From assembly GCA_903813345.2 (NCBI GenBank), contig CAIIXF020000001.1:15271915-15335914 (forward strand): DNA of 64,000 nucleotides, written 5' to 3'. Positions 32,967 to 64,000 of the stretch are shown here, piece by piece. The notes beneath the pieces were generated by a model. That model was not told the origin of the DNA, did no database searches, and saw nothing but the letters and a program-made list of their open reading frames with translations. The translations under genes and the position numbers were made by a program. The stretch comes from Owenia fusiformis. Lineage: Eukaryota; Annelida; Polychaeta; Sabellida; Oweniidae. The first letter of the stretch is position 1. Every line of letters begins with the position of its first letter.

Positions 32967-33430
32967 GGCAAAACTGCCCTAATTCACGTCACCATACTAG
33001 TCAATGGGCAAAGGGCAAACGCCTGACTTTTTATCTCGAGTTATGGATTTATGTGGCCTCACTGGCCTATCTGAGGTTCTAAAGCTATGTCTAAGCTACA
33101 TCTTGACACTAAACTCGATAGGGGCCAATCATCTACTTTTTGAAATAATTGGTCAATTGTGACACTACCCCCTCTCTCTGCAGACACAAATTGAAATTCA
33201 CAAAAATGAAGGCAAAATTAATACGCCACTTGACTCGAAATTTTCCTTCAGATAACCCAAATAAACGCATTTTCAGAAGAAATGGCATGTTGCCATTGCA
33301 AAAAGATTACAACTGTGCCTACATACTAGCTTACTGACTCGTCATGATCACATTTGTGTTGGGCCTACATTTATTTTTGAATACTACTTTTTTCTATTCA
33401 GCGGAAGTGACGTATTAGGGCATTTTGGCC
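32967..33430. mobile_element. 465-bp TIR segment (MITE-like), first of 19 copies
   Basis: Termini are inverted complements with small gaps: left GGC-AAAAC-TGCCCTAAT-TC-ACGTCAC, right (complement) GGCC-AAAA-TGCCCTAAT-ACGTCAC. In filled monomers it sits between TAATA and TAATAG; in empty monomers a single TAATAG is present, so a 5-bp (or 6-bp) target duplication fits. Copies start at 32967, 34294, 35622, 36950, 38278, 39606, 40934, 42262, 44448, 45777, 47963, 49291, 50615, 51943, 54129, 55457, 57644, 58972 and 61158. The first copy is 1 bp shorter (CAAAGGG for CAAAAGGG) and has no TAATA on its left. The 105- and 62-codon overlapping frames that it carries have no recognisable domain and no transposase features. 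Confidence 0.8.
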
Positions 33431-36400
33431 TAATAGCCACATGGTTGGATGATTTCTGGCTTTAAATTGCGTTTTTCCAATTTACTAGAGTTTTTCAAGT
33501 AGTTTTGTGCAGTTTAAGAATATTCTGACAGCAATTATGAAAAATATGGCTACTTCATTACCCCTGGGGTCATTTTTCCAAGAACCCAATGGTTTTCCTT
33601 TAAATTTGACTAGTTTTTCATTTACATCATGAAATCCACTGCCTGATGGTGACATTTTTCAGTATCGTGTCAAGAATTTGAGTATTTTATTGCATATTGC
33701 AATTTTTAGCCAAATCACTGAACCGTGAACCAGAAAATTGGACAAATTTGACCCACTTTTTGGCAAAATCTTACTAAAATCATCACTTTTTCATACTTTA
33801 TTCCATTCAACAACCTCCTGATTTGAAAAATGATGACAAATTTGATCAGTTTTGACTCTGGCCTAGAGAATTGGGACTTTTGAGATATTTTTAGCTCGAA
33901 TGTAGTCATTCAGAGTGAACAAATACATCAAAAATTGACACTTAACTCACCAATTTCTGACTGCACCCCCGATATGTACCTTCTTTCTATACTGGAAACC
34001 ATAAGATGGGAAATTCAATCTTTATGATGAATAGCAACTCGTTGGCTTCCCCATTTACGACAACAAATGACATTTAGGGGTCACTAAGGACAAAATTGTA
34101 GCCAAATATCGTCAAAATCAAGGGTTTTTGGGGTAAAAAGCGAAAACTGATGATTCAGCAAAAACATTAAATTTGTTCATGAAAATTCCCCTTTTTGCCT
34201 CCGTCCAAAATATGTTTCACACTAATAAACTTCAATTCTGGTTGATTCTGAGTAGTTTTAAAAAATTTTGGTCACTTTCACATGTGACTAATAGGCAAAA
34301 CTGCCCTAATTCACGTCACCATACTAGTCAATGGGCAAAAGGGCAAACGCCTGACTTTTTATCTCGAGTTATGGATTTATGTGGCCTCACTGGCCTATCT
34401 GAGGTTCTAAAGCTATGTCTAAGCTACATCTTGACACTAAACTCGATAGGGGCCAATCATCTACTTTTTGAAATAATTGGTCAATTGTGACACTACCCCC
34501 TCTCTCTGCAGACACAAATTGAAATTCACAAAAATGAAGGCAAAATTAATACGCCACTTGACTCGAAATTTTCCTTCAGATAACCCAAATAAACGCATTT
34601 TCAGAAGAAATGGCATGTTGCCATTGCAAAAAGATTACAACTGTGCCTACATACTAGCTTACTGACTCGTCATGATCACATTTGTGTTGGGCCTACATTT
34701 ATTTTTGAATACTACTTTTTTCTATTCAGCGGAAGTGACGTATTAGGGCATTTTGGCCTAATAGCCACATGGTTGGATGATTTCTGGCTTTAAATTGCGT
34801 TTTTCCAATTTACTAGAGTTTTTCAAGTAGTTTTGTGCAGTTTAAGAATATTCTGACAGCAATTATGAAAAATATGGCTACTTCATTACCCCTGGGGTCA
34901 TTTTTCCAAGAACCCAATGGTTTTCCTTTAAATTTGACTAGTTTTTCATTTACATCATGAAATCCACTGCCTGATGGTGACATTTTTCAGTATCGTGTCA
35001 AGAATTTGAGTATTTTATTGCATATTGCAATTTTTAGCCAAATCACTGAACCGTGAACCAGAAAATTGGACAAATTTGACCCACTTTTTGGCAAAATCTT
35101 ACTAAAATCATCACTTTTTCATACTTTATTCCATTCAACAACCTCCTGATTTGAAAAATGATGACAAATTTGATCAGTTTTGACTCTGGCCTAGAGAATT
35201 GGGACTTTTGAGATATTTTTAGCTCGAATGTAGTCATTCAGAGTGAACAAATACATCAAAAATTGACACTTAACTCACCAATTTCTGACTGCACCCCCGA
35301 TATGTACCTTCTTTCTATACTGGAAACCATAAGATGGGAAATTCAATCTTTATGATGAATAGCAACTCGTTGGCTTCCCCATTTACGACAACAAATGACA
35401 TTTAGGGGTCACTAAGGACAAAATTGTAGCCAAATATCGTCAAAATCAAGGGTTTTTGGGGTAAAAAGCGAAAACTGATGATTCAGCAAAAACATTAAAT
35501 TTGTTCATGAAAATTCCCCTTTTTGCCTCCGTCCAAAATATGTTTCACACTAATAAACTTCAATTCTGGTTGATTCTGAGTAGTTTTAAAAAATTTTGGT
35601 CACTTTCACATGTGACTAATAGGCAAAACTGCCCTAATTCACGTCACCATACTAGTCAATGGGCAAAAGGGCAAACGCCTGACTTTTTATCTCGAGTTAT
35701 GGATTTATGTGGCCTCACTGGCCTATCTGAGGTTCTAAAGCTATGTCTAAGCTACATCTTGACACTAAACTCGATAGGGGCCAATCATCTACTTTTTGAA
35801 ATAATTGGTCAATTGTGACACTACCCCCTCTCTCTGCAGACACAAATTGAAATTCACAAAAATGAAGGCAAAATTAATACGCCACTTGACTCGAAATTTT
35901 CCTTCAGATAACCCAAATAAACGCATTTTCAGAAGAAATGGCATGTTGCCATTGCAAAAAGATTACAACTGTGCCTACATACTAGCTTACTGACTCGTCA
36001 TGATCACATTTGTGTTGGGCCTACATTTATTTTTGAATACTACTTTTTTCTATTCAGCGGAAGTGACGTATTAGGGCATTTTGGCCTAATAGCCACATGG
36101 TTGGATGATTTCTGGCTTTAAATTGCGTTTTTCCAATTTACTAGAGTTTTTCAAGTAGTTTTGTGCAGTTTAAGAATATTCTGACAGCAATTATGAAAAA
36201 TATGGCTACTTCATTACCCCTGGGGTCATTTTTCCAAGAACCCAATGGTTTTCCTTTAAATTTGACTAGTTTTTCATTTACATCATGAAATCCACTGCCT
36301 GATGGTGACATTTTTCAGTATCGTGTCAAGAATTTGAGTATTTTATTGCATATTGCAATTTTTAGCCAAATCACTGAACCGTGAACCAGAAAATTGGACA

Positions 36401-39400
36401 AATTTGACCCACTTTTTGGCAAAATCTTACTAAAATCATCACTTTTTCATACTTTATTCCATTCAACAACCTCCTGATTTGAAAAATGATGACAAATTTG
36501 ATCAGTTTTGACTCTGGCCTAGAGAATTGGGACTTTTGAGATATTTTTAGCTCGAATGTAGTCATTCAGAGTGAACAAATACATCAAAAATTGACACTTA
36601 ACTCACCAATTTCTGACTGCACCCCCGATATGTACCTTCTTTCTATACTGGAAACCATAAGATGGGAAATTCAATCTTTATGATGAATAGCAACTCGTTG
36701 GCTTCCCCATTTACGACAACAAATGACATTTAGGGGTCACTAAGGACAAAATTGTAGCCAAATATCGTCAAAATCAAGGGTTTTTGGGGTAAAAAGCGAA
36801 AACTGATGATTCAGCAAAAACATTAAATTTGTTCATGAAAATTCCCCTTTTTGCCTCCGTCCAAAATATGTTTCACACTAATAAACTTCAATTCTGGTTG
36901 ATTCTGAGTAGTTTTAAAAAATTTTGGTCACTTTCACATGTGACTAATAGGCAAAACTGCCCTAATTCACGTCACCATACTAGTCAATGGGCAAAAGGGC
37001 AAACGCCTGACTTTTTATCTCGAGTTATGGATTTATGTGGCCTCACTGGCCTATCTGAGGTTCTAAAGCTATGTCTAAGCTACATCTTGACACTAAACTC
37101 GATAGGGGCCAATCATCTACTTTTTGAAATAATTGGTCAATTGTGACACTACCCCCTCTCTCTGCAGACACAAATTGAAATTCACAAAAATGAAGGCAAA
37201 ATTAATACGCCACTTGACTCGAAATTTTCCTTCAGATAACCCAAATAAACGCATTTTCAGAAGAAATGGCATGTTGCCATTGCAAAAAGATTACAACTGT
37301 GCCTACATACTAGCTTACTGACTCGTCATGATCACATTTGTGTTGGGCCTACATTTATTTTTGAATACTACTTTTTTCTATTCAGCGGAAGTGACGTATT
37401 AGGGCATTTTGGCCTAATAGCCACATGGTTGGATGATTTCTGGCTTTAAATTGCGTTTTTCCAATTTACTAGAGTTTTTCAAGTAGTTTTGTGCAGTTTA
37501 AGAATATTCTGACAGCAATTATGAAAAATATGGCTACTTCATTACCCCTGGGGTCATTTTTCCAAGAACCCAATGGTTTTCCTTTAAATTTGACTAGTTT
37601 TTCATTTACATCATGAAATCCACTGCCTGATGGTGACATTTTTCAGTATCGTGTCAAGAATTTGAGTATTTTATTGCATATTGCAATTTTTAGCCAAATC
37701 ACTGAACCGTGAACCAGAAAATTGGACAAATTTGACCCACTTTTTGGCAAAATCTTACTAAAATCATCACTTTTTCATACTTTATTCCATTCAACAACCT
37801 CCTGATTTGAAAAATGATGACAAATTTGATCAGTTTTGACTCTGGCCTAGAGAATTGGGACTTTTGAGATATTTTTAGCTCGAATGTAGTCATTCAGAGT
37901 GAACAAATACATCAAAAATTGACACTTAACTCACCAATTTCTGACTGCACCCCCGATATGTACCTTCTTTCTATACTGGAAACCATAAGATGGGAAATTC
38001 AATCTTTATGATGAATAGCAACTCGTTGGCTTCCCCATTTACGACAACAAATGACATTTAGGGGTCACTAAGGACAAAATTGTAGCCAAATATCGTCAAA
38101 ATCAAGGGTTTTTGGGGTAAAAAGCGAAAACTGATGATTCAGCAAAAACATTAAATTTGTTCATGAAAATTCCCCTTTTTGCCTCCGTCCAAAATATGTT
38201 TCACACTAATAAACTTCAATTCTGGTTGATTCTGAGTAGTTTTAAAAAATTTTGGTCACTTTCACATGTGACTAATAGGCAAAACTGCCCTAATTCACGT
38301 CACCATACTAGTCAATGGGCAAAAGGGCAAACGCCTGACTTTTTATCTCGAGTTATGGATTTATGTGGCCTCACTGGCCTATCTGAGGTTCTAAAGCTAT
38401 GTCTAAGCTACATCTTGACACTAAACTCGATAGGGGCCAATCATCTACTTTTTGAAATAATTGGTCAATTGTGACACTACCCCCTCTCTCTGCAGACACA
38501 AATTGAAATTCACAAAAATGAAGGCAAAATTAATACGCCACTTGACTCGAAATTTTCCTTCAGATAACCCAAATAAACGCATTTTCAGAAGAAATGGCAT
38601 GTTGCCATTGCAAAAAGATTACAACTGTGCCTACATACTAGCTTACTGACTCGTCATGATCACATTTGTGTTGGGCCTACATTTATTTTTGAATACTACT
38701 TTTTTCTATTCAGCGGAAGTGACGTATTAGGGCATTTTGGCCTAATAGCCACATGGTTGGATGATTTCTGGCTTTAAATTGCGTTTTTCCAATTTACTAG
38801 AGTTTTTCAAGTAGTTTTGTGCAGTTTAAGAATATTCTGACAGCAATTATGAAAAATATGGCTACTTCATTACCCCTGGGGTCATTTTTCCAAGAACCCA
38901 ATGGTTTTCCTTTAAATTTGACTAGTTTTTCATTTACATCATGAAATCCACTGCCTGATGGTGACATTTTTCAGTATCGTGTCAAGAATTTGAGTATTTT
39001 ATTGCATATTGCAATTTTTAGCCAAATCACTGAACCGTGAACCAGAAAATTGGACAAATTTGACCCACTTTTTGGCAAAATCTTACTAAAATCATCACTT
39101 TTTCATACTTTATTCCATTCAACAACCTCCTGATTTGAAAAATGATGACAAATTTGATCAGTTTTGACTCTGGCCTAGAGAATTGGGACTTTTGAGATAT
39201 TTTTAGCTCGAATGTAGTCATTCAGAGTGAACAAATACATCAAAAATTGACACTTAACTCACCAATTTCTGACTGCACCCCCGATATGTACCTTCTTTCT
39301 ATACTGGAAACCATAAGATGGGAAATTCAATCTTTATGATGAATAGCAACTCGTTGGCTTCCCCATTTACGACAACAAATGACATTTAGGGGTCACTAAG

Positions 39401-42400
39401 GACAAAATTGTAGCCAAATATCGTCAAAATCAAGGGTTTTTGGGGTAAAAAGCGAAAACTGATGATTCAGCAAAAACATTAAATTTGTTCATGAAAATTC
39501 CCCTTTTTGCCTCCGTCCAAAATATGTTTCACACTAATAAACTTCAATTCTGGTTGATTCTGAGTAGTTTTAAAAAATTTTGGTCACTTTCACATGTGAC
39601 TAATAGGCAAAACTGCCCTAATTCACGTCACCATACTAGTCAATGGGCAAAAGGGCAAACGCCTGACTTTTTATCTCGAGTTATGGATTTATGTGGCCTC
39701 ACTGGCCTATCTGAGGTTCTAAAGCTATGTCTAAGCTACATCTTGACACTAAACTCGATAGGGGCCAATCATCTACTTTTTGAAATAATTGGTCAATTGT
39801 GACACTACCCCCTCTCTCTGCAGACACAAATTGAAATTCACAAAAATGAAGGCAAAATTAATACGCCACTTGACTCGAAATTTTCCTTCAGATAACCCAA
39901 ATAAACGCATTTTCAGAAGAAATGGCATGTTGCCATTGCAAAAAGATTACAACTGTGCCTACATACTAGCTTACTGACTCGTCATGATCACATTTGTGTT
40001 GGGCCTACATTTATTTTTGAATACTACTTTTTTCTATTCAGCGGAAGTGACGTATTAGGGCATTTTGGCCTAATAGCCACATGGTTGGATGATTTCTGGC
40101 TTTAAATTGCGTTTTTCCAATTTACTAGAGTTTTTCAAGTAGTTTTGTGCAGTTTAAGAATATTCTGACAGCAATTATGAAAAATATGGCTACTTCATTA
40201 CCCCTGGGGTCATTTTTCCAAGAACCCAATGGTTTTCCTTTAAATTTGACTAGTTTTTCATTTACATCATGAAATCCACTGCCTGATGGTGACATTTTTC
40301 AGTATCGTGTCAAGAATTTGAGTATTTTATTGCATATTGCAATTTTTAGCCAAATCACTGAACCGTGAACCAGAAAATTGGACAAATTTGACCCACTTTT
40401 TGGCAAAATCTTACTAAAATCATCACTTTTTCATACTTTATTCCATTCAACAACCTCCTGATTTGAAAAATGATGACAAATTTGATCAGTTTTGACTCTG
40501 GCCTAGAGAATTGGGACTTTTGAGATATTTTTAGCTCGAATGTAGTCATTCAGAGTGAACAAATACATCAAAAATTGACACTTAACTCACCAATTTCTGA
40601 CTGCACCCCCGATATGTACCTTCTTTCTATACTGGAAACCATAAGATGGGAAATTCAATCTTTATGATGAATAGCAACTCGTTGGCTTCCCCATTTACGA
40701 CAACAAATGACATTTAGGGGTCACTAAGGACAAAATTGTAGCCAAATATCGTCAAAATCAAGGGTTTTTGGGGTAAAAAGCGAAAACTGATGATTCAGCA
40801 AAAACATTAAATTTGTTCATGAAAATTCCCCTTTTTGCCTCCGTCCAAAATATGTTTCACACTAATAAACTTCAATTCTGGTTGATTCTGAGTAGTTTTA
40901 AAAAATTTTGGTCACTTTCACATGTGACTAATAGGCAAAACTGCCCTAATTCACGTCACCATACTAGTCAATGGGCAAAAGGGCAAACGCCTGACTTTTT
41001 ATCTCGAGTTATGGATTTATGTGGCCTCACTGGCCTATCTGAGGTTCTAAAGCTATGTCTAAGCTACATCTTGACACTAAACTCGATAGGGGCCAATCAT
41101 CTACTTTTTGAAATAATTGGTCAATTGTGACACTACCCCCTCTCTCTGCAGACACAAATTGAAATTCACAAAAATGAAGGCAAAATTAATACGCCACTTG
41201 ACTCGAAATTTTCCTTCAGATAACCCAAATAAACGCATTTTCAGAAGAAATGGCATGTTGCCATTGCAAAAAGATTACAACTGTGCCTACATACTAGCTT
41301 ACTGACTCGTCATGATCACATTTGTGTTGGGCCTACATTTATTTTTGAATACTACTTTTTTCTATTCAGCGGAAGTGACGTATTAGGGCATTTTGGCCTA
41401 ATAGCCACATGGTTGGATGATTTCTGGCTTTAAATTGCGTTTTTCCAATTTACTAGAGTTTTTCAAGTAGTTTTGTGCAGTTTAAGAATATTCTGACAGC
41501 AATTATGAAAAATATGGCTACTTCATTACCCCTGGGGTCATTTTTCCAAGAACCCAATGGTTTTCCTTTAAATTTGACTAGTTTTTCATTTACATCATGA
41601 AATCCACTGCCTGATGGTGACATTTTTCAGTATCGTGTCAAGAATTTGAGTATTTTATTGCATATTGCAATTTTTAGCCAAATCACTGAACCGTGAACCA
41701 GAAAATTGGACAAATTTGACCCACTTTTTGGCAAAATCTTACTAAAATCATCACTTTTTCATACTTTATTCCATTCAACAACCTCCTGATTTGAAAAATG
41801 ATGACAAATTTGATCAGTTTTGACTCTGGCCTAGAGAATTGGGACTTTTGAGATATTTTTAGCTCGAATGTAGTCATTCAGAGTGAACAAATACATCAAA
41901 AATTGACACTTAACTCACCAATTTCTGACTGCACCCCCGATATGTACCTTCTTTCTATACTGGAAACCATAAGATGGGAAATTCAATCTTTATGATGAAT
42001 AGCAACTCGTTGGCTTCCCCATTTACGACAACAAATGACATTTAGGGGTCACTAAGGACAAAATTGTAGCCAAATATCGTCAAAATCAAGGGTTTTTGGG
42101 GTAAAAAGCGAAAACTGATGATTCAGCAAAAACATTAAATTTGTTCATGAAAATTCCCCTTTTTGCCTCCGTCCAAAATATGTTTCACACTAATAAACTT
42201 CAATTCTGGTTGATTCTGAGTAGTTTTAAAAAATTTTGGTCACTTTCACATGTGACTAATAGGCAAAACTGCCCTAATTCACGTCACCATACTAGTCAAT
42301 GGGCAAAAGGGCAAACGCCTGACTTTTTATCTCGAGTTATGGATTTATGTGGCCTCACTGGCCTATCTGAGGTTCTAAAGCTATGTCTAAGCTACATCTT

Positions 42401-43584
42401 GACACTAAACTCGATAGGGGCCAATCATCTACTTTTTGAAATAATTGGTCAATTGTGACACTACCCCCTCTCTCTGCAGACACAAATTGAAATTCACAAA
42501 AATGAAGGCAAAATTAATACGCCACTTGACTCGAAATTTTCCTTCAGATAACCCAAATAAACGCATTTTCAGAAGAAATGGCATGTTGCCATTGCAAAAA
42601 GATTACAACTGTGCCTACATACTAGCTTACTGACTCGTCATGATCACATTTGTGTTGGGCCTACATTTATTTTTGAATACTACTTTTTTCTATTCAGCGG
42701 AAGTGACGTATTAGGGCATTTTGGCCTAATAGCCACATGGTTGGATGATTTCTGGCTTTAAATTGCGTTTTTCCAATTTACTAGAGTTTTTCAAGTAGTT
42801 TTGTGCAGTTTAAGAATATTCTGACAGCAATTATGAAAAATATGGCTACTTCATTACCCCTGGGGTCATTTTTCCAAGAACCCAATGGTTTTCCTTTAAA
42901 TTTGACTAGTTTTTCATTTACATCATGAAATCCACTGCCTGATGGTGACATTTTTCAGTATCGTGTCAAGAATTTGAGTATTTTATTGCATATTGCAATT
43001 TTTAGCCAAATCACTGAACCGTGAACCAGAAAATTGGACAAATTTGACCCACTTTTTGGCAAAATCTTACTAAAATCATCACTTTTTCATACTTTATTCC
43101 ATTCAACAACCTCCTGATTTGAAAAATGATGACAAATTTGATCAGTTTTGACTCTGGCCTAGAGAATTGGGACTTTTGAGATATTTTTAGCTCGAATGTA
43201 GTCATTCAGAGTGAACAAATACATCAAAAATTGACACTTAACTCACCAATTTCTGACTGCACCCCCGATATGTACCTTCTTTCTATACTGGAAACCATAA
43301 GATGGGAAATTCAATCTTTATGATGAATAGCAACTCGTTGGCTTCCCCATTTACGACAACAAATGACATTTAGGGGTCACTAAGGACAAAATTGTAGCCA
43401 AATATCGTCAAAATCAAGGGTTTTTGGGGTAAAAAGCGAAAACTGATGATTCAGCAAAAACATTAAATTTGTTCATGAAAATTCCCCTTTTTGCCTCCGT
43501 CCAAAATATGTTTCACACTAATAAACTTCAATTCTGGTTGATTCTGAGTAGTTTTAAAAAATTTTGGTCACTTTCACATGTGAC

Positions 43585-44447
43585 TAATAGCCACATGGTT
43601 GGATGATTTCTGGCTTTAAATTGCGTTTTTCCAATTTACTAGAGTTTTTCAAGTAGTTTTGTGCAGTTTAAGAATATTCTGACAGCAATTATGAAAAATA
43701 TGGCTACTTCATTACCCCTGGGGTCATTTTTCCAAGAACCCAATGGTTTTCCTTTAAATTTGACTAGTTTTTCATTTACATCATGAAATCCACTGCCTGA
43801 TGGTGACATTTTTCAGTATCGTGTCAAGAATTTGAGTATTTTATTGCATATTGCAATTTTTAGCCAAATCACTGAACCGTGAACCAGAAAATTGGACAAA
43901 TTTGACCCACTTTTTGGCAAAATCTTACTAAAATCATCACTTTTTCATACTTTATTCCATTCAACAACCTCCTGATTTGAAAAATGATGACAAATTTGAT
44001 CAGTTTTGACTCTGGCCTAGAGAATTGGGACTTTTGAGATATTTTTAGCTCGAATGTAGTCATTCAGAGTGAACAAATACATCAAAAATTGACACTTAAC
44101 TCACCAATTTCTGACTGCACCCCCGATATGTACCTTCTTTCTATACTGGAAACCATAAGATGGGAAATTCAATCTTTATGATGAATAGCAACTCGTTGGC
44201 TTCCCCATTTACGACAACAAATGACATTTAGGGGTCACTAAGGACAAAATTGTAGCCAAATATCGTCAAAATCAAGGGTTTTTGGGGTAAAAAGCGAAAA
44301 CTGATGATTCAGCAAAAACATTAAATTTGTTCATGAAAATTCCCCTTTTTGCCTCCGTCCAAAATATGTTTCACACTAATAAACTTCAATTCTGGTTGAT
44401 TCTGAGTAGTTTTAAAAAATTTTGGTCACTTTCACATGTGACTAATA
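43585..44447. repeat. First short (empty-site) satellite monomer
   Basis: At 43578-43598 the sequence runs directly from CATGTGACTAATA into GCCACATGG with a single TAATAG and no TIR segment. This is the reference empty site against which the long monomers can be compared base by base. Apart from the missing 470 bp it matches its long neighbours. Confidence 0.95.
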
Positions 44448-47400
44448 GGCAAAACTGCCCTAATTCACGTCACCATACTAGTCAATGGGCAAAAGGGCAA
44501 ACGCCTGACTTTTTATCTCGAGTTATGGATTTATGTGGCCTCACTGGCCTATCTGAGGTTCTAAAGCTATGTCTAAGCTACATCTTGACACTAAACTCGA
44601 TAGGGGCCAATCATCTACTTTTTGAAATAATTGGTCAATTGTGACACTACCCCCTCTCTCTGCAGACACAAATTGAAATTCACAAAAATGAAGGCAAAAT
44701 TAATACGCCACTTGACTCGAAATTTTCCTTCAGATAACCCAAATAAACGCATTTTCAGAAGAAATGGCATGTTGCCATTGCAAAAAGATTACAACTGTGC
44801 CTACATACTAGCTTACTGACTCGTCATGATCACATTTGTGTTGGGCCTACATTTATTTTTGAATACTACTTTTTTCTATTCAGCGGAAGTGACGTATTAG
44901 GGCATTTTGGCCTAATAGCCACATGGTTGGATGATTTCTGGCTTTAAATTGCGTTTTTTCCAATTTACTAGAGTTTTTCAAGTAGTTTTGTGCAGTTTAA
45001 GAATATTCTGACAGCAATTATGAAAAATATGGCTACTTCATTACCCCTGGGGTCATTTTTCCAAGAACCCAATGGTTTTCCTTTAAATTTGACTAGTTTT
45101 TCATTTACATCATGAAATCCACTGCCTGATGGTGACATTTTTCAGTATCGTGTCAAGAATTTGAGTATTTTATTGCATATTGCAATTTTTAGCCAAATCA
45201 CTGAACCGTGAACCAGAAAATTGGACAAATTTGACCCACTTTTTGGCAAAATCTTACTAAAATCATCACTTTTTCATACTTTATTCCATTCAACAACCTC
45301 CTGATTTGAAAAATGATGACAAATTTGATCAGTTTTGACTCTGGCCTAGAGAATTGGGACTTTTGAGATATTTTTAGCTCGAATGTAGTCATTCAGAGTG
45401 AACAAATACATCAAAAATTGACACTTAACTCACCAATTTCTGACTGCACCCCCGATATGTACCTTCTTTCTATACTGGAAACCATAAGATGGGAAATTCA
45501 ATCTTTATGATGAATAGCAACTCGTTGGCTTCCCCATTTACGACAACAAATGACATTTAGGGGTCACTAAGGACAAAATTGTAGCCAAATATCGTCAAAA
45601 TCAAGGGTTTTTGGGGTAAAAAGCGAAAACTGATGATTCAGCAAAAACATTAAATTTGTTCATGAAAATTCCCCTTTTTGCCTCCGTCCAAAATATGTTT
45701 CACACTAATAAACTTCAATTCTGGTTGATTCTGAGTAGTTTTAAAAAATTTTGGTCACTTTCACATGTGACTAATAGGCAAAACTGCCCTAATTCACGTC
45801 ACCATACTAGTCAATGGGCAAAAGGGCAAACGCCTGACTTTTTATCTCGAGTTATGGATTTATGTGGCCTCACTGGCCTATCTGAGGTTCTAAAGCTATG
45901 TCTAAGCTACATCTTGACACTAAACTCGATAGGGGCCAATCATCTACTTTTTGAAATAATTGGTCAATTGTGACACTACCCCCTCTCTCTGCAGACACAA
46001 ATTGAAATTCACAAAAATGAAGGCAAAATTAATACGCCACTTGACTCGAAATTTTCCTTCAGATAACCCAAATAAACGCATTTTCAGAAGAAATGGCATG
46101 TTGCCATTGCAAAAAGATTACAACTGTGCCTACATACTAGCTTACTGACTCGTCATGATCACATTTGTGTTGGGCCTACATTTATTTTTGAATACTACTT
46201 TTTTCTATTCAGCGGAAGTGACGTATTAGGGCATTTTGGCCTAATAGCCACATGGTTGGATGATTTCTGGCTTTAAATTGCGTTTTTCCAATTTACTAGA
46301 GTTTTTCAAGTAGTTTTGTGCAGTTTAAGAATATTCTGACAGCAATTATGAAAAATATGGCTACTTCATTACCCCTGGGGTCATTTTTCCAAGAACCCAA
46401 TGGTTTTCCTTTAAATTTGACTAGTTTTTCATTTACATCATGAAATCCACTGCCTGATGGTGACATTTTTCAGTATCGTGTCAAGAATTTGAGTATTTTA
46501 TTGCATATTGCAATTTTTAGCCAAATCACTGAACCGTGAACCAGAAAATTGGACAAATTTGACCCACTTTTTGGCAAAATCTTACTAAAATCATCACTTT
46601 TTCATACTTTATTCCATTCAACAACCTCCTGATTTGAAAAATGATGACAAATTTGATCAGTTTTGACTCTGGCCTAGAGAATTGGGACTTTTGAGATATT
46701 TTTAGCTCGAATGTAGTCATTCAGAGTGAACAAATACATCAAAAATTGACACTTAACTCACCAATTTCTGACTGCACCCCCGATATGTACCTTCTTTCTA
46801 TACTGGAAACCATAAGATGGGAAATTCAATCTTTATGATGAATAGCAACTCGTTGGCTTCCCCATTTACGACAACAAATGACATTTAGGGGTCACTAAGG
46901 ACAAAATTGTAGCCAAATATCGTCAAAATCAAGGGTTTTTGGGGTAAAAAGCGAAAACTGATGATTCAGCAAAAACATTAAATTTGTTCATGAAAATTCC
47001 CCTTTTTGCCTCCGTCCAAAATATGTTTCACACTAATAAACTTCAATTCTGGTTGATTCTGAGTAGTTTTAAAAAATTTTGGTCACTTTCACATGTGACT
47101 AATAGCCACATGGTTGGATGATTTCTGGCTTTAAATTGCGTTTTTCCAATTTACTAGAGTTTTTCAAGTAGTTTTGTGCAGTTTAAGAATATTCTGACAG
47201 CAATTATGAAAAATATGGCTACTTCATTACCCCTGGGGTCATTTTTCCAAGAACCCAATGGTTTTCCTTTAAATTTGACTAGTTTTTCATTTACATCATG
47301 AAATCCACTGCCTGATGGTGACATTTTTCAGTATCGTGTCAAGAATTTGAGTATTTTATTGCATATTGCAATTTTTAGCCAAATCACTGAACCGTGAACC

Positions 47401-50400: not shown

Positions 50401-53400
50401 AGGGGTCACTAAGGACAAAATTGTAGCCAAATATCGTCAAAATCAAGGGTTTTTGGGGTAAAAAGCGAAAACTGATGATTCAGCAAAAACATTAAATTTG
50501 TTCATGAAAATTCCCCTTTTTGCCTCCGTCCAAAATATGTTTCACACTAACTTCAATTCTGGTTGATTCTGAGTAGTTTTAAAAAATTTTGGTCACTTTC
50601 ACATGTGACTAATAGGCAAAACTGCCCTAATTCACGTCACCATACTAGTCAATGGGCAAAAGGGCAAACGCCTGACTTTTTATCTCGAGTTATGGATTTA
50701 TGTGGCCTCACTGGCCTATCTGAGGTTCTAAAGCTATGTCTAAGCTACATCTTGACACTAAACTCGATAGGGGCCAATCATCTACTTTTTGAAATAATTG
50801 GTCAATTGTGACACTACCCCCTCTCTCTGCAGACACAAATTGAAATTCACAAAAATGAAGGCAAAATTAATACGCCACTTGACTCGAAATTTTCCTTCAG
50901 ATAACCCAAATAAACGCATTTTCAGAAGAAATGGCATGTTGCCATTGCAAAAAGATTACAACTGTGCCTACATACTAGCTTACTGACTCGTCATGATCAC
51001 ATTTGTGTTGGGCCTACATTTATTTTTGAATACTACTTTTTTCTATTCAGCGGAAGTGACGTATTAGGGCATTTTGGCCTAATAGCCACATGGTTGGATG
51101 ATTTCTGGCTTTAAATTGCGTTTTTCCAATTTACTAGAGTTTTTCAAGTAGTTTTGTGCAGTTTAAGAATATTCTGACAGCAATTATGAAAAATATGGCT
51201 ACTTCATTACCCCTGGGGTCATTTTTCCAAGAACCCAATGGTTTTCCTTTAAATTTGACTAGTTTTTCATTTACATCATGAAATCCACTGCCTGATGGTG
51301 ACATTTTTCAGTATCGTGTCAAGAATTTGAGTATTTTATTGCATATTGCAATTTTTAGCCAAATCACTGAACCGTGAACCAGAAAATTGGACAAATTTGA
51401 CCCACTTTTTGGCAAAATCTTACTAAAATCATCACTTTTTCATACTTTATTCCATTCAACAACCTCCTGATTTGAAAAATGATGACAAATTTGATCAGTT
51501 TTGACTCTGGCCTAGAGAATTGGGACTTTTGAGATATTTTTAGCTCGAATGTAGTCATTCAGAGTGAACAAATACATCAAAAATTGACACTTAACTCACC
51601 AATTTCTGACTGCACCCCCGATATGTACCTTCTTTCTATACTGGAAACCATAAGATGGGAAATTCAATCTTTATGATGAATAGCAACTCGTTGGCTTCCC
51701 CATTTACGACAACAAATGACATTTAGGGGTCACTAAGGACAAAATTGTAGCCAAATATCGTCAAAATCAAGGGTTTTTGGGGTAAAAAGCGAAAACTGAT
51801 GATTCAGCAAAAACATTAAATTTGTTCATGAAAATTCCCCTTTTTGCCTCCGTCCAAAATATGTTTCACACTAATAAACTTCAATTCTGGTTGATTCTGA
51901 GTAGTTTTAAAAAATTTTGGTCACTTTCACATGTGACTAATAGGCAAAACTGCCCTAATTCACGTCACCATACTAGTCAATGGGCAAAAGGGCAAACGCC
52001 TGACTTTTTATCTCGAGTTATGGATTTATGTGGCCTCACTGGCCTATCTGAGGTTCTAAAGCTATGTCTAAGCTACATCTTGACACTAAACTCGATAGGG
52101 GCCAATCATCTACTTTTTGAAATAATTGGTCAATTGTGACACTACCCCCTCTCTCTGCAGACACAAATTGAAATTCACAAAAATGAAGGCAAAATTAATA
52201 CGCCACTTGACTCGAAATTTTCCTTCAGATAACCCAAATAAACGCATTTTCAGAAGAAATGGCATGTTGCCATTGCAAAAAGATTACAACTGTGCCTACA
52301 TACTAGCTTACTGACTCGTCATGATCACATTTGTGTTGGGCCTACATTTATTTTTGAATACTACTTTTTTCTATTCAGCGGAAGTGACGTATTAGGGCAT
52401 TTTGGCCTAATAGCCACATGGTTGGATGATTTCTGGCTTTAAATTGCGTTTTTCCAATTTACTAGAGTTTTTCAAGTAGTTTTGTGCAGTTTAAGAATAT
52501 TCTGACAGCAATTATGAAAAATATGGCTACTTCATTACCCCTGGGGTCATTTTTCCAAGAACCCAATGGTTTTCCTTTAAATTTGACTAGTTTTTCATTT
52601 ACATCATGAAATCCACTGCCTGATGGTGACATTTTTCAGTATCGTGTCAAGAATTTGAGTATTTTATTGCATATTGCAATTTTTAGCCAAATCACTGAAC
52701 CGTGAACCAGAAAATTGGACAAATTTGACCCACTTTTTGGCAAAATCTTACTAAAATCATCACTTTTTCATACTTTATTCCATTCAACAACCTCCTGATT
52801 TGAAAAATGATGACAAATTTGATCAGTTTTGACTCTGGCCTAGAGAATTGGGACTTTTGAGATATTTTTAGCTCGAATGTAGTCATTCAGAGTGAACAAA
52901 TACATCAAAAATTGACACTTAACTCACCAATTTCTGACTGCACCCCCGATATGTACCTTCTTTCTATACTGGAAACCATAAGATGGGAAATTCAATCTTT
53001 ATGATGAATAGCAACTCGTTGGCTTCCCCATTTACGACAACAAATGACATTTAGGGGTCACTAAGGACAAAATTGTAGCCAAATATCGTCAAAATCAAGG
53101 GTTTTTGGGGTAAAAAGCGAAAACTGATGATTCAGCAAAAACATTAAATTTGTTCATGAAAATTCCCCTTTTTGCCTCCGTCCAAAATATGTTTCACACT
53201 AATAAACTTCAATTCTGGTTGATTCTGAGTAGTTTTAAAAAATTTTGGTCACTTTCACATGTGACTAATAGCCACATGGTTGGATGATTTCTGGCTTTAA
53301 ATTGCGTTTTTCCAATTTACTAGAGTTTTTCAAGTAGTTTTGTGCAGTTTAAGAATATTCTGACAGCAATTATGAAAAATATGGCTACTTCATTACCCCT

Positions 53401-56400
53401 GGGGTCATTTTTCCAAGAACCCAATGGTTTTCCTTTAAATTTGACTAGTTTTTCATTTACATCATGAAATCCACTGCCTGATGGTGACATTTTTCAGTAT
53501 CGTGTCAAGAATTTGAGTATTTTATTGCATATTGCAATTTTTAGCCAAATCACTGAACCGTGAACCAGAAAATTGGACAAATTTGACCCACTTTTTGGCA
53601 AAATCTTACTAAAATCATCACTTTTTCATACTTTATTCCATTCAACAACCTCCTGATTTGAAAAATGATGACAAATTTGATCAGTTTTGACTCTGGCCTA
53701 GAGAATTGGGACTTTTGAGATATTTTTAGCTCGAATGTAGTCATTCAGAGTGAACAAATACATCAAAAATTGACACTTAACTCACCAATTTCTGACTGCA
53801 CCCCCGATATGTACCTTCTTTCTATACTGGAAACCATAAGATGGGAAATTCAATCTTTATGATGAATAGCAACTCGTTGGCTTCCCCATTTACGACAACA
53901 AATGACATTTAGGGGTCACTAAGGACAAAATTGTAGCCAAATATCGTCAAAATCAAGGGTTTTTGGGGTAAAAAGCGAAAACTGATGATTCAGCAAAAAC
54001 ATTAAATTTGTTCATGAAAATTCCCCTTTTTGCCTCCGTCCAAAATATGTTTCACACTAATAAACTTCAATTCTGGTTGATTCTGAGTAGTTTTAAAAAA
54101 TTTTGGTCACTTTCACATGTGACTAATAGGCAAAACTGCCCTAATTCACGTCACCATACTAGTCAATGGGCAAAAGGGCAAACGCCTGACTTTTTATCTC
54201 GAGTTATGGATTTATGTGGCCTCACTGGCCTATCTGAGGTTCTAAAGCTATGTCTAAGCTACATCTTGACACTAAACTCGATAGGGGCCAATCATCTACT
54301 TTTTGAAATAATTGGTCAATTGTGACACTACCCCCTCTCTCTGCAGACACAAATTGAAATTCACAAAAATGAAGGCAAAATTAATACGCCACTTGACTCG
54401 AAATTTTCCTTCAGATAACCCAAATAAACGCATTTTCAGAAGAAATGGCATGTTGCCATTGCAAAAAGATTACAACTGTGCCTACATACTAGCTTACTGA
54501 CTCGTCATGATCACATTTGTGTTGGGCCTACATTTATTTTTGAATACTACTTTTTTCTATTCAGCGGAAGTGACGTATTAGGGCATTTTGGCCTAATAGC
54601 CACATGGTTGGATGATTTCTGGCTTTAAATTGCGTTTTTCCAATTTACTAGAGTTTTTCAAGTAGTTTTGTGCAGTTTAAGAATATTCTGACAGCAATTA
54701 TGAAAAATATGGCTACTTCATTACCCCTGGGGTCATTTTTCCAAGAACCCAATGGTTTTCCTTTAAATTTGACTAGTTTTTCATTTACATCATGAAATCC
54801 ACTGCCTGATGGTGACATTTTTCAGTATCGTGTCAAGAATTTGAGTATTTTATTGCATATTGCAATTTTTAGCCAAATCACTGAACCGTGAACCAGAAAA
54901 TTGGACAAATTTGACCCACTTTTTGGCAAAATCTTACTAAAATCATCACTTTTTCATACTTTATTCCATTCAACAACCTCCTGATTTGAAAAATGATGAC
55001 AAATTTGATCAGTTTTGACTCTGGCCTAGAGAATTGGGACTTTTGAGATATTTTTAGCTCGAATGTAGTCATTCAGAGTGAACAAATACATCAAAAATTG
55101 ACACTTAACTCACCAATTTCTGACTGCACCCCCGATATGTACCTTCTTTCTATACTGGAAACCATAAGATGGGAAATTCAATCTTTATGATGAATAGCAA
55201 CTCGTTGGCTTCCCCATTTACGACAACAAATGACATTTAGGGGTCACTAAGGACAAAATTGTAGCCAAATATCGTCAAAATCAAGGGTTTTTGGGGTAAA
55301 AAGCGAAAACTGATGATTCAGCAAAAACATTAAATTTGTTCATGAAAATTCCCCTTTTTGCCTCCGTCCAAAATATGTTTCACACTAATAAACTTCAATT
55401 CTGGTTGATTCTGAGTAGTTTTAAAAAATTTTGGTCACTTTCACATGTGACTAATAGGCAAAACTGCCCTAATTCACGTCACCATACTAGTCAATGGGCA
55501 AAAGGGCAAACGCCTGACTTTTTATCTCGAGTTATGGATTTATGTGGCCTCACTGGCCTATCTGAGGTTCTAAAGCTATGTCTAAGCTACATCTTGACAC
55601 TAAACTCGATAGGGGCCAATCATCTACTTTTTGAAATAATTGGTCAATTGTGACACTACCCCCTCTCTCTGCAGACACAAATTGAAATTCACAAAAATGA
55701 AGGCAAAATTAATACGCCACTTGACTCGAAATTTTCCTTCAGATAACCCAAATAAACGCATTTTCAGAAGAAATGGCATGTTGCCATTGCAAAAAGATTA
55801 CAACTGTGCCTACATACTAGCTTACTGACTCGTCATGATCACATTTGTGTTGGGCCTACATTTATTTTTGAATACTACTTTTTTCTATTCAGCGGAAGTG
55901 ACGTATTAGGGCATTTTGGCCTAATAGCCACATGGTTGGATGATTTCTGGCTTTAAATTGCGTTTTTCCAATTTACTAGAGTTTTTCAAGTAGTTTTGTG
56001 CAGTTTAAGAATATTCTGACAGCAATTATGAAAAATATGGCTACTTCATTACCCCTGGGGTCATTTTTCCAAGAACCCAATGGTTTTCCTTTAAATTTGA
56101 CTAGTTTTTCATTTACATCATGAAATCCACTGCCTGATGGTGACATTTTTCAGTATCGTGTCAAGAATTTGAGTATTTTATTGCATATTGCAATTTTTAG
56201 CCAAATCACTGAACCGTGAACCAGAAAATTGGACAAATTTGACCCACTTTTTGGCAAAATCTTACTAAAATCATCACTTTTTCATACTTTATTCCATTCA
56301 ACAACCTCCTGATTTGAAAAATGATGACAAATTTGATCAGTTTTGACTCTGGCCTAGAGAATTGGGACTTTTGAGATATTTTTAGCTCGAATGTAGTCAT

Positions 56401-59400
56401 TCAGAGTGAACAAATACATCAAAAATTGACACTTAACTCACCAATTTCTGACTGCACCCCCGATATGTACCTTCTTTCTATACTGGAAACCATAAGATGG
56501 GAAATTCAATCTTTATGATGAATAGCAACTCGTTGGCTTCCCCATTTACGACAACAAATGACATTTAGGGGTCACTAAGGACAAAATTGTAGCCAAATAT
56601 CGTCAAAATCAAGGGTTTTTGGGGTAAAAAGCGAAAACTGATGATTCAGCAAAAACATTAAATTTGTTCATGAAAATTCCCCTTTTTGCCTCCGTCCAAA
56701 ATATGTTTCACACTAATAAACTTCAATTCTGGTTGATTCTGAGTAGTTTTAAAAAATTTTGGTCACTTTCACATGTGACTAATAGCCACATGGTTGGATG
56801 ATTTCTGGCTTTAAATTGCGTTTTTTCCAATTTACTAGAGTTTTTCAAGTAGTTTTGTGCAGTTTAAGAATATTCTGACAGCAATTATGAAAAATATGGC
56901 TACTTCATTACCCCTGGGGTCATTTTTCCAAGAACCCAATGGTTTTCCTTTAAATTTGACTAGTTTTTCATTTACATCATGAAATCCACTGCCTGATGGT
57001 GACATTTTTCAGTATCGTGTCAAGAATTTGAGTATTTTATTGCATATTGCAATTTTTAGCCAAATCACTGAACCGTGAACCAGAAAATTGGACAAATTTG
57101 ACCCACTTTTTGGCAAAATCTTACTAAAATCATCACTTTTTCATACTTTATTCCATTCAACAACCTCCTGATTTGAAAAATGATGACAAATTTGATCAGT
57201 TTTGACTCTGGCCTAGAGAATTGGGACTTTTGAGATATTTTTAGCTCGAATGTAGTCATTCAGAGTGAACAAATACATCAAAAATTGACACTTAACTCAC
57301 CAATTTCTGACTGCACCCCCGATATGTACCTTCTTTCTATACTGGAAACCATAAGATGGGAAATTCAATCTTTATGATGAATAGCAACTCGTTGGCTTCC
57401 CCATTTACGACAACAAATGACATTTAGGGGTCACTAAGGACAAAATTGTAGCCAAATATCGTCAAAATCAAGGGTTTTTGGGGTAAAAAGCGAAAACTGA
57501 TGATTCAGCAAAAACATTAAATTTGTTCATGAAAATTCCCCTTTTTGCCTCCGTCCAAAATATGTTTCACACTAATAAACTTCAATTCTGGTTGATTCTG
57601 AGTAGTTTTAAAAAATTTTGGTCACTTTCACATGTGACTAATAGGCAAAACTGCCCTAATTCACGTCACCATACTAGTCAATGGGCAAAAGGGCAAACGC
57701 CTGACTTTTTATCTCGAGTTATGGATTTATGTGGCCTCACTGGCCTATCTGAGGTTCTAAAGCTATGTCTAAGCTACATCTTGACACTAAACTCGATAGG
57801 GGCCAATCATCTACTTTTTGAAATAATTGGTCAATTGTGACACTACCCCCTCTCTCTGCAGACACAAATTGAAATTCACAAAAATGAAGGCAAAATTAAT
57901 ACGCCACTTGACTCGAAATTTTCCTTCAGATAACCCAAATAAACGCATTTTCAGAAGAAATGGCATGTTGCCATTGCAAAAAGATTACAACTGTGCCTAC
58001 ATACTAGCTTACTGACTCGTCATGATCACATTTGTGTTGGGCCTACATTTATTTTTGAATACTACTTTTTTCTATTCAGCGGAAGTGACGTATTAGGGCA
58101 TTTTGGCCTAATAGCCACATGGTTGGATGATTTCTGGCTTTAAATTGCGTTTTTCCAATTTACTAGAGTTTTTCAAGTAGTTTTGTGCAGTTTAAGAATA
58201 TTCTGACAGCAATTATGAAAAATATGGCTACTTCATTACCCCTGGGGTCATTTTTCCAAGAACCCAATGGTTTTCCTTTAAATTTGACTAGTTTTTCATT
58301 TACATCATGAAATCCACTGCCTGATGGTGACATTTTTCAGTATCGTGTCAAGAATTTGAGTATTTTATTGCATATTGCAATTTTTAGCCAAATCACTGAA
58401 CCGTGAACCAGAAAATTGGACAAATTTGACCCACTTTTTGGCAAAATCTTACTAAAATCATCACTTTTTCATACTTTATTCCATTCAACAACCTCCTGAT
58501 TTGAAAAATGATGACAAATTTGATCAGTTTTGACTCTGGCCTAGAGAATTGGGACTTTTGAGATATTTTTAGCTCGAATGTAGTCATTCAGAGTGAACAA
58601 ATACATCAAAAATTGACACTTAACTCACCAATTTCTGACTGCACCCCCGATATGTACCTTCTTTCTATACTGGAAACCATAAGATGGGAAATTCAATCTT
58701 TATGATGAATAGCAACTCGTTGGCTTCCCCATTTACGACAACAAATGACATTTAGGGGTCACTAAGGACAAAATTGTAGCCAAATATCGTCAAAATCAAG
58801 GGTTTTTGGGGTAAAAAGCGAAAACTGATGATTCAGCAAAAACATTAAATTTGTTCATGAAAATTCCCCTTTTTGCCTCCGTCCAAAATATGTTTCACAC
58901 TAATAAACTTCAATTCTGGTTGATTCTGAGTAGTTTTAAAAAATTTTGGTCACTTTCACATGTGACTAATAGGCAAAACTGCCCTAATTCACGTCACCAT
59001 ACTAGTCAATGGGCAAAAGGGCAAACGCCTGACTTTTTATCTCGAGTTATGGATTTATGTGGCCTCACTGGCCTATCTGAGGTTCTAAAGCTATGTCTAA
59101 GCTACATCTTGACACTAAACTCGATAGGGGCCAATCATCTACTTTTTGAAATAATTGGTCAATTGTGACACTACCCCCTCTCTCTGCAGACACAAATTGA
59201 AATTCACAAAAATGAAGGCAAAATTAATACGCCACTTGACTCGAAATTTTCCTTCAGATAACCCAAATAAACGCATTTTCAGAAGAAATGGCATGTTGCC
59301 ATTGCAAAAAGATTACAACTGTGCCTACATACTAGCTTACTGACTCGTCATGATCACATTTGTGTTGGGCCTACATTTATTTTTGAATACTACTTTTTTC

Positions 59401-62400
59401 TATTCAGCGGAAGTGACGTATTAGGGCATTTTGGCCTAATAGCCACATGGTTGGATGATTTCTGGCTTTAAATTGCGTTTTTCCAATTTACTAGAGTTTT
59501 TCAAGTAGTTTTGTGCAGTTTAAGAATATTCTGACAGCAATTATGAAAAATATGGCTACTTCATTACCCCTGGGGTCATTTTTCCAAGAACCCAATGGTT
59601 TTCCTTTAAATTTGACTAGTTTTTCATTTACATCATGAAATCCACTGCCTGATGGTGACATTTTTCAGTATCGTGTCAAGAATTTGAGTATTTTATTGCA
59701 TATTGCAATTTTTAGCCAAATCACTGAACCGTGAACCAGAAAATTGGACAAATTTGACCCACTTTTTGGCAAAATCTTACTAAAATCATCACTTTTTCAT
59801 ACTTTATTCCATTCAACAACCTCCTGATTTGAAAAATGATGACAAATTTGATCAGTTTTGACTCTGGCCTAGAGAATTGGGACTTTTGAGATATTTTTAG
59901 CTCGAATGTAGTCATTCAGAGTGAACAAATACATCAAAAATTGACACTTAACTCACCAATTTCTGACTGCACCCCCGATATGTACCTTCTTTCTATACTG
60001 GAAACCATAAGATGGGAAATTCAATCTTTATGATGAATAGCAACTCGTTGGCTTCCCCATTTACGACAACAAATGACATTTAGGGGTCACTAAGGACAAA
60101 ATTGTAGCCAAATATCGTCAAAATCAAGGGTTTTTGGGGTAAAAAGCGAAAACTGATGATTCAGCAAAAACATTAAATTTGTTCATGAAAATTCCCCTTT
60201 TTGCCTCCGTCCAAAATATGTTTCACACTAATAAACTTCAATTCTGGTTGATTCTGAGTAGTTTTAAAAAATTTTGGTCACTTTCACATGTGACTAATAG
60301 CCACATGGTTGGATGATTTCTGGCTTTAAATTGCGTTTTTCCAATTTACTAGAGTTTTTCAAGTAGTTTTGTGCAGTTTAAGAATATTCTGACAGCAATT
60401 ATGAAAAATATGGCTACTTCATTACCCCTGGGGTCATTTTTCCAAGAACCCAATGGTTTTCCTTTAAATTTGACTAGTTTTTCATTTACATCATGAAATC
60501 CACTGCCTGATGGTGACATTTTTCAGTATCGTGTCAAGAATTTGAGTATTTTATTGCATATTGCAATTTTTAGCCAAATCACTGAACCGTGAACCAGAAA
60601 ATTGGACAAATTTGACCCACTTTTTGGCAAAATCTTACTAAAATCATCACTTTTTCATACTTTATTCCATTCAACAACCTCCTGATTTGAAAAATGATGA
60701 CAAATTTGATCAGTTTTGACTCTGGCCTAGAGAATTGGGACTTTTGAGATATTTTTAGCTCGAATGTAGTCATTCAGAGTGAACAAATACATCAAAAATT
60801 GACACTTAACTCACCAATTTCTGACTGCACCCCCGATATGTACCTTCTTTCTATACTGGAAACCATAAGATGGGAAATTCAATCTTTATGATGAATAGCA
60901 ACTCGTTGGCTTCCCCATTTACGACAACAAATGACATTTAGGGGTCACTAAGGACAAAATTGTAGCCAAATATCGTCAAAATCAAGGGTTTTTGGGGTAA
61001 AAAGCGAAAACTGATGATTCAGCAAAAACATTAAATTTGTTCATGAAAATTCCCCTTTTTGCCTCCGTCCAAAATATGTTTCACACTAATAAACTTCAAT
61101 TCTGGTTGATTCTGAGTAGTTTTAAAAAATTTTGGTCACTTTCACATGTGACTAATAGGCAAAACTGCCCTAATTCACGTCACCATACTAGTCAATGGGC
61201 AAAAGGGCAAACGCCTGACTTTTTATCTCGAGTTATGGATTTATGTGGCCTCACTGGCCTATCTGAGGTTCTAAAGCTATGTCTAAGCTACATCTTGACA
61301 CTAAACTCGATAGGGGCCAATCATCTACTTTTTGAAATAATTGGTCAATTGTGACACTACCCCCTCTCTCTGCAGACACAAATTGAAATTCACAAAAATG
61401 AAGGCAAAATTAATACGCCACTTGACTCGAAATTTTCCTTCAGATAACCCAAATAAACGCATTTTCAGAAGAAATGGCATGTTGCCATTGCAAAAAGATT
61501 ACAACTGTGCCTACATACTAGCTTACTGACTCGTCATGATCACATTTGTGTTGGGCCTACATTTATTTCTGAATACTACTTTTTTCTATTCAGCGGAAGT
61601 GACGTATTAGGGCATTTTGGCCTAATAGCCACATGGTTGGATGATTTCTGGCTTTAAATTGCGTTTTTTCCAATTTACTAGAGTTTTTCAAGTAGTTTTG
61701 TGCAGTTTAAGAATATTCTGACAGCAATTATGAAAAATATGGCTACTTCATTACCCCTGGGGTCATTTTTCCAAGAACCCAATGGTTTTCCTTTAAATTT
61801 GACTAGTTTTTCATTTACATCATGAAATCCACTGCCTGATGGTGACATTTTTCAGTATCGTGTCAAGAATTTGAGTATTTTATTGCATATTGCAATTTTT
61901 AGCCAAATCACTGAACCGTGAACCAGAAAATTGGACAAATTTGACCCACTTTTTGGCAAAATCTTACTAAAATCATCACTTTTTCATACTTTATTCCATT
62001 CAACAACCTCCTGATTTGAAAAATGATGACAAATTTGATCAGTTTTGACTCTGGCCTAGAGAATTGGGACTTTTGAGATATTTTTAGCTCGAATGTAGTC
62101 ATTCAGAGTGAACAAATACATCAAAAATTGACACTTAACTCACCAATTTCTGACTGCACCCCCGATATGTACCTTCTTTCTATACTGGAAACCATAAGAT
62201 GGGAAATTCAATCTTTATGATGAATAGCAACTCGTTGGCTTCCCCATTTACGACAACAAATGACATTTAGGGGTCACTAAGGACAAAATTGTAGCCAAAT
62301 ATCGTCAAAATCAAGGGTTTTTGGGGTAAAAAGCGAAAACTGATGATTCAGCAAAAACATTAAATTTGTTCATGAAAATTCCCCTTTTTGCCTCCGTCCA

Positions 62401-64000
62401 AAATATGTTTCACACTAATAAACTTCAATTCTGGTTGATTCTGAGTAGTTTTAAAAAATTTTGGTCACTTTCACATGTGACTAATAGCCACATGGTTGGA
62501 TGATTTCTGGCTTTAAATTGCGTTTTTCCAATTTACTAGAGTTTTTCAAGTAGTTTTGTGCAGTTTAAGAATATTCTGACAGCAATTATGAAAAATATGG
62601 CTACTTCATTACCCCTGGGGTCATTTTTCCAAGAACCCAATGGTTTTCCTTTAAATTTGACTAGTTTTTCATTTACATCATGAAATCCACTGCCTGATGG
62701 TGACATTTTTCAGTATCGTGTCAAGAATTTGAGTATTTTATTGCATATTGCAATTTTTAGCCAAATCACTGAACCGTGAACCAGAAAATTGGACAAATTT
62801 GACCCACTTTTTGGCAAAATCTTACTAAAATCATCACTTTTTCATACTTTATTCCATTCAACAACCTCCTGATTTGAAAAATGATGACAAATTTGATCAG
62901 TTTTGACTCTGGCCTAGAGAATTGGGACTTTTGAGATATTTTTAGCTCGAATGTAGTCATTCAGAGTGAACAAATACATCAAAAATTGACACTTAACTCA
63001 CCAATTTCTGACTGCACCCCCGATATGTACCTTCTTTCTATACTGGAAACCATAAGATGGGAAATTCAATCTTTATGATGAATAGCAACTCGTTGGCTTC
63101 CCCATTTACGACAACAAATGACATTTAGGGGTCACTAAGGACAAAATTGTAGCCAAATATCGTCAAAATCAAGGGTTTTTGGGGTAAAAAGCGAAAACTG
63201 ATGATTCAGCAAAAACATTAAATTTGTTCATGAAAATTCCCCTTTTTGCCTCCGTCCAAAATATGTTTCACACTAATAAACTTCAATTCTGGTTGATTCT
63301 GAGTAGTTTTAAAAATTTTGGTCACTTTCACATGTGACTAATAGCCACATGGTTGGATGATTTCTGGCTTTAAATTGCGTTTTTCCAATTTACTAGAGTT
63401 TTTCAAGTAGTTTTGTGCAGTTTAAGAATATTCTGACAGCAATTATGAAAAATATGGCTACTTCATTACCCCTGGGGTCATTTTTCCAAGAACCCAATGG
63501 TTTTCCTTTAAATTTGACTAGTTTTTCATTTACATCATGAAATCCACTGCCTGATGGTGACATTTTTCAGTATCGTGTCAAGAATTTGAGTATTTTATTG
63601 CATATTGCAATTTTTAGCCAAATCACTGAACCGTGAACCAGAAAATTGGACAAATTTGACCCACTTTTTGGCAAAATCTTACTAAAATCATCACTTTTTC
63701 ATACTTTATTCCATTCAACAACCTCCTGATTTGAAAAATGATGACAAATTTGATCAGTTTTGACTCTGGCCTAGAGAATTGGGACTTTTGAGATATTTTT
63801 AGCTCGAATGTAGTCATTCAGAGTGAACAAATACATCAAAAATTGACACTTAACTCACCAATTTCTGACTGCACCCCCGATATGTACCTTCTTTCTATAC
63901 TGGAAACCATAAGATGGGAAATTCAATCTTTATGATGAATAGCAACTCGTTGGCTTCCCCATTTACGACAACAAATGACATTTAGGGGTCACTAAGGACA

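Follow-up and report, generated by a model that had tools for sequence, protein, structure and literature searches.

The window analysed here, a stretch of 64,000 nucleotides from the annelid Owenia fusiformis, corresponds to C1:15271915-15335914 in a 498-Mb assembly. Its left half holds further tandem repeats at 1063-1868 (84-bp units), 10504-10770 (44 bp), 13166-14171 (42 bp) and 27309-27620 (139 bp). From position 32967 to the end of the window, a tandem array is present in which two kinds of sequence alternate: a core, C, of 853 bp, which together with one TAATA gives a unit of 858 bp, and an element, E, of 465 bp. Filled and empty monomers differ by E plus one TAATA, i.e., by 470 bp. Word spacings of 1328 and 858 dominate within the window, with spacings of 1324, 1329, 857 and 859 occurring once each in the array, and the segment contains 26 core anchors, 19 left TIRs, 19 right TIRs and 7 empty junctions. 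These counts agree with the earlier note on this DNA, which had described monomers of 1328 and 858 bp that differ by one TIR-bounded 465-bp block plus TAATA and meet at an exact empty junction. The features are listed in Table 1.

Table 1. Positions of the array and its parts, numbered from the first letter of the window
Feature	Positions	Strand	Remark
E-(C-E)n array, part within the window	32967..64000	+	continues to C1:15417744; 112,864 bp in total
Left copy of the 3-bp target duplication TTT	32964..32966	.	outside the first E; right TTT follows the last E, C1:15417744
First E, outermost left	32967..33430	+	one base shorter than 465; left TIR forms the array edge
First core C, 853 bp	33436..34288	+	TAATA at both sides
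Second E, type copy, 465 bp, MITE-like	34294..34758	+	imperfect TIRs GGCAAAACTGCCCTAAT / ATTAGGGCATTTTGGCC
Empty junction 1, C-TAATA-C	43585..43589	.	exact junction match
Empty junction 2	47100..47104	.	exact junction match
Empty junction 3	53266..53270	.	exact junction match
Empty junction 4	56780..56784	.	exact junction match
Empty junction 5	60295..60299	.	exact junction match
Empty junction 6	62482..62486	.	exact junction match
Empty junction 7	63339..63343	.	exact junction match

The left edge of the array coincides exactly with the left TIR of an E, with unique sequence before it and no core ahead, and the array extends past the window to a right end that is the right TIR of another E. 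Both the identity of the left edge and this continuation had escaped the earlier note. The complete main array (C1:15304881-15417744) contains, among the matches listed, 91 cores separated by 72 filled and 18 empty spacings, whose order is random (29 runs versus a mean of 29.8 in shuffles). In a comparison drawing on the window and the right end (L001), pairwise changes number no more than two among 26 full cores and likewise among 21 full E. With its 112,864 bp and this uniformity, the main array has the long, homogenised tandem organisation that defines satellite DNA; on both outer sides it is flanked by TTT. The array of the window has thus been shown to be a transposon-bounded unit.

Similar units are widely dispersed. 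At two mismatches or fewer, the genome contains 617 matches to a core anchor and 706 to an E anchor, and many units of the form E-(C-E)n, with 1 to 91 cores, were found across it. The first dispersed loci comprised E-C-E, E-C-E-C-E and E-(C-E)3, each with a 3-bp duplication on its outer sides, together with a truncated copy (L006) and an old one (L005, 83 per cent). Free left ends of E were sought with a pattern that misses ends preceded by A and changed TIRs; of the 67 places that it marked, 49 were examined. Flank scoring reduced 65 records to 63 rows (L071, L076 and L077 gave no match, and C9 gave two rows), and the count was based on the 41 rows in which both ends could be read. Of 25 core-bearing units, 24 had matching 3-bp flanks, as had 11 of the 16 solo E, against a chance expectation of about 1 in 64 each. 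The core-bearing miss is L055 (TTT/TCT), and the solo misses are L061, L070, L074, L078 and a solo E beside the C9 array. Beyond the 41 rows, two diverged core-bearing units also have matching flanks and those of L069 and L072 match by eye; L081 and L082 came after the count and so stand outside its totals. The long arrays C8 (AAT), C11a (ATT) and C9 (AAA) are E-bounded with matching triplets, like the main array. At L057 and L058 the flanks share 52 of 52 bp, and the target of L057 is uninterrupted in L058. One flanking repeat is common to L057, L058 and L076: the units of L057 and L058 occupy different sites within it, and the remnant at L076 lies at the L057 site.

The core seems to have no free end of its own, because the only exact core start in the genome that is not preceded by A lies at L047, where E flanks the core on either side. 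A genome search for core starts, together with the 49 of 67 free left ends, yielded no free-standing core-only satellite. In 24 of 25 core-bearing units, a pair of elements bounds a dispersed cargo and the duplication lies outside the pair, which is the arrangement that characterises a composite transposon. Because E bounds the units and the matching 3-bp flanks lie outside it, the "satellite" can be regarded as the cargo of such a transposon, and there is good support for reading the whole as a composite transposon with a satellite-forming cargo.

A different history would have the satellite come first: a core-only satellite would have received E once, with a 5-bp TAATA duplication, filled and empty monomers would have been amplified together, and E ends would later have mobilised pieces of the array. 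This history accounts for the TAATA found on both sides of E in nearly all filled monomers (76 of 77 E-C and 73 of 74 C-E junctions) and for the single TAATA at the empty junction, and it agrees with the existence of a nearly all-empty array, C9, among the more diverged ones. On the other hand, the rule that can be read from the flanks is 3 bp, not one of the 35 matching loci depends on a 5-bp duplication as such, and the intact units examined are all bounded by E, no core-only locus having appeared among the 49 of 67 free left ends. We consider this order of events unlikely. The 5-bp duplication assigned to E in the earlier note is likewise not supported, as the duplications at solo E are 3 bp long. 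The inner flanks of E read ATA (left) and TAA (right), which is at odds with a duplication of 3 bp.

The same note had regarded E as an independent transposon and had suggested looking for the 465-bp segment outside the satellite, where its complete absence would speak against that view. Solo copies of E without core do exist, and 11 of the 16 readable ones have matching flanks. E is short (465 bp) and non-coding, its termini are GGC..GCC, and its TIRs, about 25 bp long and imperfect, are readable and pair; when the type copy was folded as single-strand DNA, its ends paired with a z of -2.7. The length of the target duplication is also constant at solo copies, at 3 bp in the 11 with matching flanks. 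The identification of E as an independent MITE-like DNA transposon with a 3-bp target duplication is therefore supported. Assignment to a known superfamily was attempted on two counts. PIF/Harbinger elements duplicate TWA, and E was excluded from this group on the basis that 0 of 35 matching duplications are TAA or TTA; the free-left-end pattern barred A at the last place of the triplet, but the variety of other triplets is enough to break the rule. The TIRs of CACTA/EnSpm elements start with CACTA or CACTG, and E was excluded here by its start with GGC.

Searches of Rfam (32901-36100) and Pfam (three ORFs of the window, one of which extends across core and E) gave no match. An autonomous partner was sought through a TIR pattern that occurs at 18 places in the genome, and no transposase was found at the 10 that were looked at. 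Seven of these are E-like (L069, L070, L072-L075 and L078), and L076 is a 17-bp remnant of E in the same target as L057. About 8 kb each at L071 and L077, inspected by eye, contained no recognisable transposase; a reading frame near L077 carries a motif that we take to be tyrosinase-like. L073 and L075 match E from base 15-16 onward, preceded by other sequence that itself opens with a TIR resembling that of E; the arrangement looks like the result of an insertion at the TAA within the TIR.

The arrangement E-C-E also resembles LTR retrotransposons and their tandem forms, which likewise have identical terminal direct repeats, solo repeats and tandem units, and E-C-E might be read as a non-autonomous, TRIM-like member of that group with E as its LTR. 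The identical terminal direct repeats of 24 of 29 units, the solo E and the tandem units that share an E all agree with such a reading. However, E-C-E differs in lacking TG..CA ends, its own being GGC..GCC, and in having long TIRs of about 25 bp and duplications of 3 bp instead of 4-6 bp, and no primer-binding site or purine tract was seen by eye beside E. This identity is largely refuted by the ends and the duplication length, and we regard it as highly improbable.

With regard to the empty monomers, a core-core junction pattern has 128 genome matches at two mismatches or fewer. Exact empty junctions number at least 18 in C1, 18 in C8, 18 in C9, 15 in C10, 21 and 5 in the two C11 arrays and 5 in C50, and empty junctions are present in at least seven arrays and one short unit. 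The latter, L081, is a short diverged unit with the structure E-C-C-E; it rules out a restriction of empties to long arrays, and because of it the tally is to be taken as a floor. The C9 array (L028-L030) is nearly all-empty, and one of its cores is interrupted by 6.5 kb of other sequence. Among 49 core-core junctions read, 47 are plain TAATA, one is TAATAATA and one is TTTTTTAATA. The last two may represent plain mutation, since three E-C junctions in C11a read TATTTAATA with E present. Empty junctions are present in L081 and in the long arrays that have diverged most, so the empty state may be old.

Several array edges lack E. At the right edge of L066 (TAT) and the left edge of L043 (CTT), the TAATA of the core directly adjoins a triplet that duplicates the other flank; L044 duplicates the L043 locus, with an overlap of one base. 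The right edge of C11b (TAT) and the left edge of C10 (ATT) fit such a triplet with overlaps of 2 and 1 bp, respectively, and L045 (right flank AGT) and L046 (AAG) have no matching left flank. The four fitting edges provide modest evidence that E can be lost at its own ends. Recurrent loss of E is the likely main source of empty monomers as judged from these patterns, and a scenario with E as the carrier and the empties as derived is favoured because the lone core start not preceded by A has E beside it and because a 3-bp duplication does not account for the inner flanks of E. The founding association of E with C may nevertheless have been an insertion, considering that TAATA at both core ends resembles a 5-bp duplication and that diverged units contain empties. 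Between the two origins that the earlier note had allowed, insertion into a satellite monomer or removal from amplified copies, removal thus fits the empty monomers of today better. No core-only satellite came to light in the searches described, and the satellite rides on E instead of serving only as a target of insertion.

E may also have been lost without any transposase, through replication slippage or annealing of the TAATA direct repeats, with the TIR hairpin helping. The plain TAATA scar at 47 of 49 core-core junctions agrees with such loss, as does the pairing of the ends of E in the single-strand fold. What it does not explain is the disappearance of E at edges that have no outer TAATA (exactly at L066 and L043, with 1-2 bp of overlap at C11b and C10), although such edges are few and two others do not fit. 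We regard slippage as a tentative alternative, somewhat on the doubtful side.

The explanation that we prefer, and consider probable, is that E is a MITE-like element whose outermost ends, in copies of direct orientation, act as the ends of an E-(C-E)n transposon, and that E is also cut out from the middles of arrays. Two E in direct orientation would enclose the 853-bp cargo C, and their outermost ends would serve as the ends of a larger transposon, E-C-E or E-(C-E)n. A transposase acting on the TIRs of E could also excise E within arrays, and the break might then be joined on the flanking TAATA repeats, giving an empty monomer, or be repaired by copying a neighbouring C-E-C, which would restore E. 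Through such copying, all E copies in one unit would stay identical, the array would be homogenised and its length would change. Long arrays could have either moved ready-made or grown in place after insertion of a short unit. Points in favour of this explanation are the array edges formed by TIRs of E with TTT/TTT outside, and the empties in at least seven arrays with array-specific cores, randomly ordered in the main array; plain TAATA junctions would also be expected from simple slippage or from an ancestral core-core junction.

Identity of E within units is a further feature to be explained. Of the 29 units with at least two full-length E, 24 have the same sequence in the leftmost and the rightmost copy, whereas identity holds for 8 of 812 left-right pairs that combine different units (mean, 5.2 changes). 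Differences among E occur in L016 (14), in L024, L058 and C11a (1 each), and in the main and C9 arrays (2 each). This pattern is LTR-like, here in what appears to be a DNA transposon. It could arise either from new identical copies made at each move or from recopying within the unit after insertion. Between units, the core has diverged by 1.77 per cent and E by 0.77 per cent (325 pairs from 26 units; C9 and C11a were left out), and every array has a core variant of its own, within which 0-4 changes occur.

These data also bear on a simpler scheme, in which only E-C-E spreads and the arrays and their identical E are produced later, in place, by unequal crossing-over or gene conversion between repeats 858 bp apart, solo E being generated by recombination between two E in the manner of solo LTRs. 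Ordinary recombination would suffice for this, and the scheme agrees with the 3-bp duplications and with the occurrence of a separate core variant, changed at only 0-4 positions, in each array. Taken alone, it leaves unexplained the loss of E at edges and the lower divergence of E than of core between units. Its chance of being correct is, in our estimation, close to even, if slightly below. A bolder extension of the transposon explanation, which we think rather unlikely, is that E-C-E renews its terminal repeats at each move in the manner of LTR elements, for example through a circle with one E that gives rise to a concatemer cut at the outermost TIRs. If true, a whole array, up to about 113 kb long, would be a single insertion, and the birth, spread and homogenisation of a satellite would be one transposition process.

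A search of the literature for related cases revealed none that we recognised as an E-(C-E)n structure, and several known systems share parts of it. The bacterial MITE-bounded composites called TIME-COMP (PMC13367494) likewise mobilise cargo by means of two miniature TIR copies, also in direct orientation; they differ in belonging to the Tn3 family and carrying resistance genes, and the cited sections describe no tandem arrays of satellite size. Tandem CMITE arrays in corals (PMC2872659) similarly consist of full-length MITEs and spacers, both alike within an array, but their elements are about 100 bp long with TTAA duplications, and the arrays are short and ascribed to replication slippage; the relevant part of that report describes neither an outer duplication of the whole array nor filled and empty monomers. 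MITE-borne satellites such as Xenopus Xstir and miDNA4 also involve, according to the part of a review that covers them (PMC12628747), a MITE family tied to tandem arrays that vary in copy number; in those cases the repeat is internal to the MITE, whereas in Owenia complete MITEs punctuate and end the array. Alternative transposition of maize Ac/Ds (PMC3744419, PMC4270019) likewise involves a joint reaction of the ends of two nearby elements and leads, in the cases those sections present, to tandem direct duplications and composite insertions with target duplications. Ac/Ds elements differ in being hAT with 8-bp duplications, and the same sections make no mention of long, homogenised satellite arrays.

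How satellites reach new chromosomes and remain homogeneous is a long-standing question. With transposon ends and target duplications on the arrays, insertion can be distinguished from growth in place, and the scars that lost E have left in each array can be counted and could be compared between individuals by long reads. If cutting by a transposon at every monomer does drive homogenising repair, the concerted evolution of satellites would gain a concrete enzyme. What keeps E identical within each unit is perhaps the most interesting part.

Some minor observations concern variation between arrays. The array at C8:34691466-34804330 is 112,865 bp long, compared with 112,864 bp for the main array, and by core the two are nearest relatives; among the matches listed, each has 91 cores and 18 empty junctions (for C8, derived from spacings). 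A test for a common origin by their filled/empty order gave no greater likeness than in shuffles, and the nearly equal lengths and the equal counts may be a coincidence. Across 31 units, variable sites amount to 42 of 465 in E and 166 of 855 in the core. Core changes between these units are strand-biased (37 C>T versus 15 G>A, p ~0.003), and E is without such bias (2 and 5).
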